Position numbers and translations under genes: made by a program
DNA from: Methanofollis formosanus
GTDB lineage: Archaea > Halobacteriota > Methanomicrobia > Methanomicrobiales > Methanofollaceae
DNA length: 64,000 nucleotides
Direction: 5' to 3'
NCBI RefSeq assembly: GCF_019633745.1
Contig: NZ_CP037968.1
Span: 372,001 to 436,000, forward strand
Shown here: positions 31,971-36,183 of the stretch, one piece after another
How positions within the stretch are numbered: the first letter of the stretch is position 1
Layout: each line of letters opens with the position of its first letter
The notes under the pieces: model-generated
Database searches by the model: none
The model's input: the letters and a program-made list of their open reading frames with translations, nothing else
What the model was told of the DNA's origin: nothing

Positions 31971-32243
31971 TCAATATTTCCGATACACCTTACTCCGATG
32001 CCCCACTTCGATCGCGTGGATGACCATCACTTCATCCACGATGGTGAGAATGGCGCGGTATTCGCCGGCCCTGAGAGAGTAAAAAGGAGGGTTCTGTCCT
32101 CCCTGTATCTTCTTCACATGCCTTTTCGGGTCTGTCTCCCCGGCGAGCGACATCAACTCTTCATCGATCGCGAGGGCGTCGTCCTTCGGGATACGCTTGA
32201 TGTTACGGCGGGCCGTCGCGGAGAAGAAGACGCGATAGTTCAT
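31971..32243 (-). CDS. RelE/ParE-superfamily toxin, copy B
   Basis: A 90-residue toxin that differs from copy A (4063) at seven positions (for example Lys10 to Thr, Gly27 to Asp, Asp70 to Glu). The key elements, SLRAGEYRAILTI and VGHRSKVYRKY, are unchanged, so it is probably functional. Unlike copy A, its start lies 41 bases inside the antitoxin frame. The two copies are 27.9 kb apart and could recombine. Confidence 0.9.
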   Translation of the reverse strand: MNYRVFFSATARRNIKRIPKDDALAIDEELMSLAGETDPKRHVKKIQGGQNPPFYSLRAGEYRAILTIVDEVMVIHAIEVGHRSKVYRKY

Positions 32244-32484
32244 CGTCTTTCAGCTCCGCCATGACCTGCTCAAGGGTATAGAGCCGGCCCGCTTTGATAT
32301 CTTCGAGAGATTCTTCGATGGCTTTGATGGTGGCGTCGCTGAGGGGTTCGTCATCGACTGCCATCTCCACGAGCCGCTCGATCACGTCGGTGTAGGATTC
32401 CCCGGGGTGGATCTTCAGAGAGTCCAGGCGGTGCTTGAGGGGGACCCTGATCTTGATGGTGGTGGTGTCGGCGGCAGTGGGCAT
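32203..32484 (-). CDS. Antitoxin, copy B, with frameshifted C-terminus
   Basis: A 93-residue antitoxin identical to copy A except for a two-residue insertion (MPTAAD), two substitutions, and its end. One base present in copy A between GACGA and the toxin ATG is missing here, so the frame misses its stop and adds about 15 residues (ELSRLLLRDGPP), running into the toxin gene in another frame. Either the longer tail is tolerated or copy B has an altered affinity for its toxin. The core, SDATIKAIEESLEDIKAGR, is intact. Confidence 0.85.
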   Translation of the reverse strand: MPTAADTTTIKIRVPLKHRLDSLKIHPGESYTDVIERLVEMAVDDEPLSDATIKAIEESLEDIKAGRLYTLEQVMAELKDDELSRLLLRDGPP

Positions 32485-34331: not shown

Positions 34332-34770
34332 CTATGATCTCTGAATTGGATGTTTTGTTAACCTTTTTTTATACACCTCTCCAGTGATGTCTGGTTCGGT
34401 TGTTTCGGTCATTACGATCCAATCGGGGGGATGGTACCCCTTCTCCATCTCTTCCCGAATCATCGGTAGTGCCCCAGAATAGAACTGAAAATCTATTTCT
34501 GAAAATCTGGCCGAATTCTGTTGAGCAGTGACCTGTATTCATAACAGAAACTGGTGCAGAGAGAGTTTTTTTTGTTATCAGTTATTGCCGGGGGCACTAC
34601 CGAATCATCTACCTGATCAGTTCAGGGATGATCTCTTGGCGTGCCAAGTTGACCTCCTGTGCCGCCTCCTTGTTGCGGGGTCCGTGATGCCATAATGGGC
34701 AAGCATTGCGGCGTTCACGTTGCGGTTGGCAGTGGTGGCAACAAGGATCAGTTCATTGGTAAAAGATTGA
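34332..34770 (-). pseudogene. Unknown gene interrupted by a MITE, with frameshift and stop
   Basis: Taking out the 137-bp MITE and one target copy restores a minus-strand coding sequence: LILVATTANRNVNAAMLAHYG, a frameshift, NKEAAQEVNLARQEIIPELIR, an in-frame TAG, then MIREEMEKGYHPPDWIV and an end at 34332. I do not recognise the family. Three lesions (frameshift, amber codon, insertion) make it clearly dead. No start codon is visible at the upstream end near 34770. Confidence 0.65.
34465..34601. mobile_element. 137-bp MITE with 8-bp target duplication
   Basis: Ends are perfect 11-bp inverted repeats (GGTAGTGCCCC), with a further AACTGA match a few bases in. It is flanked on both sides by GAATCATC (34457-34464 and 34602-34609), an 8-bp target duplication. 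It has no coding capacity. The 8-bp duplication would fit mobilisation by an IS1595-like or other 8-bp-duplicating transposase; that is inference. Confidence 0.88.
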
Positions 34771-34908
34771 CAAATATACTCGCAATTTTCAAAATTTGGG
34801 AAAATATATTGGTTTAAACTGGTGTTGGGTCATTTTGATGTTGTTGTAAGAAAAATAAATCAAAAATATTATCTTATTCCTATGGATCTATATACTGTTA
34901 GGAGAAAA

Positions 34909-36183
34909 ATGACTTCAGAAATAGTGGTAATGAATAAATTATCTGTTGCCATTGCTGCAGATAGTGCTGCAACAGTGACGGGTGAGAAAATATTCAATGC
35001 CAACAAAATATTTACTCTCTCAAAATATCATCCGGTTGGTATTATGTTTTATGGGAACACTCAGTTTATGGGGGTTCCTTGGGAAACCATTATAAAGAAT
35101 TTTAGAAATGACTTAGGCAACACCGGTTATGATTCTCTAAATGAATACATCTCAAAATTTTTTGACTACATAAGTAATAATGGATCTCTTTTCTCTGAAG
35201 ACAATATTTTTCATATATTTAATGGAACTCTTTGGGGAGTATTGAATGATATTAAAGAAAATATTCGTAGAAAAGTGGATGATACCATAAGACAGAAAGG
35301 AAATATTTCTGAGAGGGAGATCACTGAGATCACAGATCAGGTGATGTCATATTACATTGACTCATGGAAATCTGTCCTCTATTCTGAACCTATAAATTCG
35401 TTGGATGGCGAATATTTAACAAAAAAATACGATGATGAGATTAATACTGCAATCAAAGGTACATTTGAAAATCTCGATATTTCTAGATATACAAATGATC
35501 TAAAGAGCATGGTTGTAAAAATTTATCTCATGGGAGCATTATATAAGGATCTATATTCAGGCTTAGTGTTTGTTGGATTTGGAAAAAATGAGATATTCCC
35601 ATCCTATCAGGAATTTTATATTTATGGATATATAAATAATACATTAAAGTATAAGGGAGCAAAATATGATTCTATTTCTTTTGAAAATTCTGCCACCATG
35701 TCTTCATTTGCCCAAGGCGATGTTATTGAAACTTTTATGGAAGGAATCTCTCCCAATCTAAATAGATTGTTTATTCATTTAATTCCTTCTTTGTTCACTG
35801 AATATACAGACAAAGTAGTTGGATTAGTAAATCTCGATGGAAATGAGTTAGATATACTGAAAAGAAAATTGACTGAGATTTCAAAAATCATTATTGAAAA
35901 ATATTTCTATGAAATACAGGATTTCAAAAAACACACACATGTAGATCCAGTAATGGATATTGTTTCACATCTTCCCAAAGAGGAACTTGCAGAATTGGCT
36001 GAATCTCTTGTGCATTTAACTTCATTAAAGAGAAGAGTCTCAAATGACGCAGAATCTGTTGGTGGACCCATTGATGTTGCTGTGATCTCAAAAGGAGATG
36101 GATTCATCTGGATGAAACGAAAACAATATTTTGACATACAACTGAACTCGCACTTTGAAACTAATTACTATAACAAGAGGTGA
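34909..36183 (+). CDS. Proteasome-like (Ntn-hydrolase fold) protein
   Basis: A 424-residue protein whose first 60 residues resemble a proteasome/HslV beta subunit: TSEIVVMNKLSVAIAADSA, then KIFNANKIFTLSKYHPVGIMFYGN. The rest is unlike proteasomes: long helices, and a C-terminal PKEELAELAESLVHLTSLKR, then GGPIDVAVISKGDGFIWMKR. In the beta-subunit fold the N-terminal Thr would be nucleophile; here Thr2 follows the initiator Met, so Met removal would expose it. I chose the ATG at 34909 because AGGAG is four bases upstream. The gene is distinctly AT-rich, suggesting transfer. A 56-codon gene follows. Confidence 0.7.
   Translation: MTSEIVVMNKLSVAIAADSAATVTGEKIFNANKIFTLSKYHPVGIMFYGNTQFMGVPWETIIKNFRNDLGNTGYDSLNEYISKFFDYISNNGSLFSEDNIFHIFNGTLWGVLNDIKENIRRKVDDTIRQKGNISEREITEITDQVMSYYIDSWKSVLYSEPINSLDGEYLTKKYDDEINTAIKGTFENLDISRYTNDLKSMVVKIYLMGALYKDLYSGLVFVGFGKNEIFPSYQEFYIYGYINNTLKYKGAKYDSISFENSATMSSFAQGDVIETFMEGISPNLNRLFIHLIPSLFTEYTDKVVGLVNLDGNELDILKRKLTEISKIIIEKYFYEIQDFKKHTHVDPVMDIVSHLPKEELAELAESLVHLTSLKRRVSNDAESVGGPIDVAVISKGDGFIWMKRKQYFDIQLNSHFETNYYNKR

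Follow-up and report, generated by a model that had tools for sequence, protein, structure and literature searches.

Two questions are raised by this locus: which transposase moved a 137-bp repeat-bounded element to its present site, and what that site was before the insertion. The earlier note on the window (the whole 64-kb stretch of DNA that was analysed) had placed at 34332-34770 a miniature inverted-repeat transposable element (MITE) of 137 bp, with perfect 11-bp ends and an exact 8-bp target duplication, inside a dead gene, and it left the transposase family unnamed. Direct reading and a repeat search have borne out the element, its ends and its duplication. The coordinates hold for the wider region of the presumed dead gene, whereas the element itself occupies 34465-34601. 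Its parts are the following:

34465..34601, plus strand: non-autonomous element (MITE) of 137 bp, recognised by its structure and by further copies with target duplications
34457..34464, plus strand: left 8-bp target duplication GAATCATC, read directly and found in the repeat search
34602..34609, plus strand: right 8-bp target duplication GAATCATC, read directly and found in the repeat search
34465..34475, plus strand: left terminal inverted repeat GGTAGTGCCCC, exact over 11 bp
34591..34601, minus strand: right terminal inverted repeat GGTAGTGCCCC, exact over 11 bp
34483..34488, plus strand: left subterminal box AACTGA, at positions 19-24 from the end, seen in the end comparison
34578..34583, minus strand: right subterminal box AACTGA, at positions 19-24 from the end, seen in the end comparison

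The 137-bp insertion is real and beyond chance. An exhaustive scan of the 64-kb window for perfect 11-bp inverted ends, spanning 60-2000 bp and with an exact 8-bp direct repeat on either side, returned this single case, and the same arrangement did not occur in any of 200 first-order Markov simulations of the window. The end sequence GGTAGTGCCCC is found nowhere else in the window, even when one mismatch is allowed. The element is gene-less, as stops interrupt every minus-strand frame and none of the listed reading frames of at least 60 aa lies inside it.

The flanks of the element are plausibly a former gene, a reading that has modest support and is unproven:

34332..34757, minus strand: possible relic of an interrupted gene, in three reading pieces, proposed from its codon score; unproven

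On the minus strand the flank can be read from LILVATTANR...DPATR, through a change of frame (around 34656-34680), into NKEAAQEVNLARQEIIPELIR; an in-frame TAG follows (34611-34609), which spans the edge of the right target duplication (34609-34611), and the reading then continues with MIREEMEKGYHPPDWIV... to the stop at 34334-34332. When codon usage was scored in all six frames, the claimed minus-strand frame came out highest in every one of the three pieces, which gives modest support to the dead gene of the earlier note. No convincing homologue was found: no Pfam or NCBIfam family was matched, and no match was found in phages or plasmids, or outside its own genome among 149 genomes of the order. 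The other 11 genomes of the genus lack its right flank. Only two weak matches appeared in 391 genomes of the phylum (G096, 27% identity over 75 aa; G468, 34%); both were taken as chance, lying inside proteins that are LarC-like and AMP-binding-like (named from their translations). Two neighbours in the window can be mentioned here. A 453-aa frame adjoining the element (34822-36183, plus strand) matches neither Pfam nor NCBIfam, and at 31971-32484, on the minus strand, a ParE-type toxin frame with an antitoxin-like frame upstream (DUF7557/VapB-like) is an ordinary toxin-antitoxin pair.

The host genome (G000), which belongs like Methanospirillum to the Methanomicrobiales, is a single contig of 2.97 Mb, and a DNA search of it, as the earlier note had proposed, has revealed five copies of the MITE, the window copy included, so that four are new, and two of these four have an exact 8-bp duplication of their own. 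The three duplications in the five copies are GAATCATC, GAAAAATT and CGATCTTC. The second copy is 93% identical and is flanked by GAAAAATT; the third, at 82% identity, has no duplication; the fourth ends early, at position 98; and the fifth (G000:C1:255988-256459; L005/L006) is split by some 330 bp of other DNA and has CGATCTTC on both sides. The 330-bp insert is itself bordered by a 6-bp repeat, TTCATA, and looks like a second insertion. Matches to the MITE were found in seven of 61 genomes, six of which, counting the host, belong to the same genus. G003 contains a copy with 96.4% identity to that of the window, but its target is another one, TATTAATT, and it therefore represents an independent insertion. 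Of ten two-ended elements in the genus, five are flanked by an exact 8-bp duplication and a sixth by one that agrees in 7 of 8 bp. A different repeat, starting with GGCTCTGTAGAA or GGCCCTGTAGAAT, was noticed next to or within several of the MITE copies (L004 1380-1640, the region of G000:C1:648423; L099; L100), and seems to be a further mobile or repeat family of the genus.

Relatives of unit length extend beyond the genus. Elements of 135-138 bp with 67-76% identity are present in G151, G153, G111, G044 and G131, which belong to another family of the order, and their interior is recognisably common with that of the MITE. A 136-bp element in a Methanospirillum genome (G211) reaches only 61% identity and may be of separate origin. 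Outside the genus, an exact 8-bp duplication is seen in four of 16 end pairs and a duplication of 7 of 8 bp in one; a 1,813-bp pair in G147 is counted among the 16 and is not taken as one element. Over all 26 two-ended elements (the ten of the genus and these 16 pairs, window copy included), the exact duplication is present in nine and absent in 17.

A conserved interior could also suggest a structured RNA or a regulatory repeat in place of a transposon derivative. In that sense, the single strand of the element folds better than shuffled sequences (z of -5.6 and -4.1), and its interior is conserved from one family to the other. Both strands fold well, however, because of the paired ends, and the consensus fold over 14 copies consists essentially of the two terminal blocks, the interior contributing only two short four-pair hairpins with few compensatory changes; over the whole fold, two-sided changes occur in four of 24 pairs. 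No Rfam family was matched, even with E values up to 1, and the exact target duplications at unrelated sites are the mark of inserted DNA. An RNA or regulatory function as the nature of the element is, on this evidence, highly improbable, and the reading as an inserted, gene-less transposon derivative is the one followed below.

The end comparison has revealed that the MITE ends consist of two parts, GGTAGTGCYC at positions 1-10 and AACTGA at positions 19-24, separated by 8 variable bases, and the AACTGA subterminal box is proposed to be a putative transposase-binding box. When GGTAGTGCYC-N8-AACTGA was searched for with up to one mismatch, and its reversed pattern was used as control, 24 sites were found in four of the 12 genomes of the genus against one control match, and 42 of 232 genomes of the order contained the pattern. 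Control matches in the order were scattered, with at most two per genome, compared with 47 pattern sites in G119 and 29 in G151. Copies found through the pattern carry it by selection, so their conservation of it is not independent evidence; that evidence is the presence of the two-part end in copies recovered by plain DNA search and on insertion sequence (IS) elements. The same two-part ends also delimit longer non-autonomous elements (301-607 bp) elsewhere in the order, which have exact 8-bp duplications in G131_C61, G071_C1 and G091_C250, and which differ from the MITE in their middle sequence, about 60 bp of one half being shared. Two further observations were made during these searches. 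G119, from another family, has unusually many ends, and the two pairs looked at there (L203, L204) lie about 460 bp apart. In the host, a lone end with a spacer of 7 bases, GGTAGTGCCCC-N7-AACTGA, stands at G000:C1:1511462 (L050, position 663) with no partner end nearby, and it is probably the remnant of a related element; the wide pair G000:C1:1511462-1512654, whose tips resemble the pattern, was rejected as one element, having unrelated frames inside and a right tip without the box.

Elements that encode a transposase bear this type of end as well. Three IS1-type elements, in the host, in G148 and in G204, have the two-part end with its 8-base spacing as their right border, and IS1-type remnants adjoin two-part ends in three more genomes (G044, G071 and G083). 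IS1 is known for -1 frameshifting at an A-run, for tips of the GGnnnTG type and for duplications of 8 to 9 bp, and IS1-type elements that combine GGnnnTG-type tips with 8-bp duplications were found here. G204, a genome of the Methanospirillum hungatei JF1 type, harbors nine full copies of 1,097 bp that are letter-identical, and all nine of the copies fetched have exact 8-bp duplications; a tenth match, a short and weak fragment, is left out of this number. Nine identical copies with duplications of their own point to very recent transposition. Their right end, GGTACTGGCC-N8-AACTGA, is two bases off the MITE end pattern and was for this reason missed in the order-wide pattern search, and their left end is GGTAGTGCCC-N8-AGCTGG. 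The element of G148 (Methanospirillum stamsii, NZ_QGMZ01000030) has the same layout as these copies. This archaeal group of the M. hungatei type is presumably the one called ISMhu11. Among the literature matches listed, neither the name ISMhu11 nor the phrase 'miniature inverted-repeat transposable' appears, which is no proof of an unpublished family. More broadly, of 53 archaeal IS1-type loci fetched, 33 were scanned for ends, and six of the 33 have exact 8-bp duplications behind tips of the GGTAnTG type (L123, L124, L126, L129, L131 and L132). Two frames appear to be placed for -1 frameshifting at an A-run in L087, L088, L095 and the G204 copy, and the transposase of L085 is a single frame. 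A scan of viral contigs found no relative of the transposase.

The host element is 1,094 bp long (G000:C1:2392023-2393116), its right end is one of the pattern sites, and it contains the only IS1-type transposase found in the 12 genomes of the genus. Its second frame reaches 32.9 bits with Pfam DDE_Tnp_IS1 (cut-off 24.1), and its first frame reaches 33.2 bits with the IS1/IS1595 zinc domain NF050000 (cut-off 28). Zn_ribbon_InsA remained below its cut-off (19.5 against 26.1), and so did the NCBIfam IS1 model NF033558, which gave 61.6 and 27.0 bits with the two frames scanned apart, the cut-off being 100. The G204 copy scores 24.7 bits with DDE_Tnp_IS1, against the same cut-off of 24.1. It could be argued from the zinc domain, whose model is common to IS1 and IS1595, that the MITE belongs to some other family with 8-bp duplications and GG tips, such as IS1595, and that its likeness to IS1 is coincidental; the direct parent was indeed not found. 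This coincidence would have to extend to the spaced two-part end at the right borders of the host, G148 and G204 elements and beside the remnants in three more genomes, and the DDE part exceeds the Pfam IS1 cut-off in both the host and G204, while no IS1595 DDE family appeared. A mover from another family is therefore improbable, and IS1 is most likely the transposase family of the MITE.

By the comparison of ends, then, the MITE uses IS1-type ends, and the current model proposes that the 137-bp MITE, a miniature derivative without genes, travels as the passenger of an IS1-family insertion sequence from archaea, to which we assign a probability of roughly 0.88. The outcome that the earlier note had set against a MITE, namely no further copies and no matching transposon ends, is the opposite of what was found: its reading is upheld by further copies, by independent target duplications and by full-length elements with matching two-part ends. 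The search for a parent combined pattern and profile searches of 232 genomes of the order, with the ends of a subset of the order-wide transposase matches inspected, and a scan of the ends of 33 of the 53 archaeal IS1-type loci; in neither set did a full-length IS1 have ends matching the MITE past the two-part end of about 24 bp.

The host has both the MITE and an IS1-like element, and the former could have originated as a short internal-deletion product of the latter (2392023-2393116), made in this same genome. The two have the same tip and the same right-end box, but their ends agree only in the two-part motif, the spacer and everything beyond it being different. In addition, copies of about 136 bp that are 67-76% identical exist in another family, and the miniature form therefore predates this genome. 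Such a local deletion is accordingly very unlikely. The host IS1-like copy is itself probably defective, to judge from its sequence: its second frame is out of register for a -1 shift at the A-run, no exact target duplication is found at its tips, and its left end has TGCCGA where the AACTGA box is expected; a miscounted A-run in the assembly could possibly give the appearance of a frameshift. As this copy looks frameshifted, the MITE is probably an orphan in its host. No IS1 transposase could be detected in three other MITE-bearing genomes of the genus (G001, G003 and G005). This speaks against the IS1 model, as do the missing duplication and left box of the host copy, the 17 two-ended elements without an exact duplication and the NF033558 scores below cut-off. 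A search of the genus with Pfam PF03400 gave no match in 12 genomes, though it missed the host's own IS1-like element too, and this negative result is therefore uninformative.

According to the proposed mechanism, an IS1-type transposase would be made by frameshifting at the A-run, which joins two overlapping reading frames. This protein would recognise the subterminal box and cut at the GG tips, and the ends would then be joined to the target with an 8-base stagger, so that filling of the gaps would give rise to the 8-bp duplication. For the MITE, the transposase would have been supplied in trans by a helper IS1 element; both the movement in trans and the choice of helper are what we infer from shared ends. 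With the only IS1-like copy of the host now probably defective, the MITE would be either stranded or reliant on incoming helpers.

The main interest of this locus lies in the naming of the mover and in a conserved unit common to two methanogen families, as the probable moving machinery of an orphan methanogen repeat family can now be named. The signature GGTAGTGCYC-N8-AACTGA is usable to annotate such elements across the order, and the nine identical copies of the M. hungatei type are a possible helper for transposition assays in archaea. A more speculative proposal, which we consider rather unlikely, is that one IS1-dependent MITE of about 136 bp has been maintained in at least two Methanomicrobiales families, with a conserved interior that may have a function instead of being filler. 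MITE-bearing genomes include some without a detectable IS1 transposase. If the proposal were true, the interior might serve as a binding site for the transposase or for a host factor, or might make cross-mobilisation by passing IS1 elements easier.

Compared with known systems, the 137-bp element is a genuine and fairly ordinary IS1-type miniature transposon, of a kind already known. It has in common with the archaeal IS1 family of the M. hungatei type, and with its putative helpers, the GG-tipped ends and the 8-bp target duplications. The putative helper elements have in addition the two overlapping frames at an A-run and the IS1-type DDE and zinc domains of that family, whereas the MITE lacks a transposase gene and measures only 137 bp. 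Prokaryotic MITEs are likewise short and gene-less; they occur in several copies, are bounded by terminal inverted repeats and target duplications, and have a larger counterpart whose ends match theirs. The present element differs from MITEs in general by its end, which combines an 11-bp tip with a separate subterminal box, and by a unit of about 136 bp that is kept, together with its interior, across two methanogen families.
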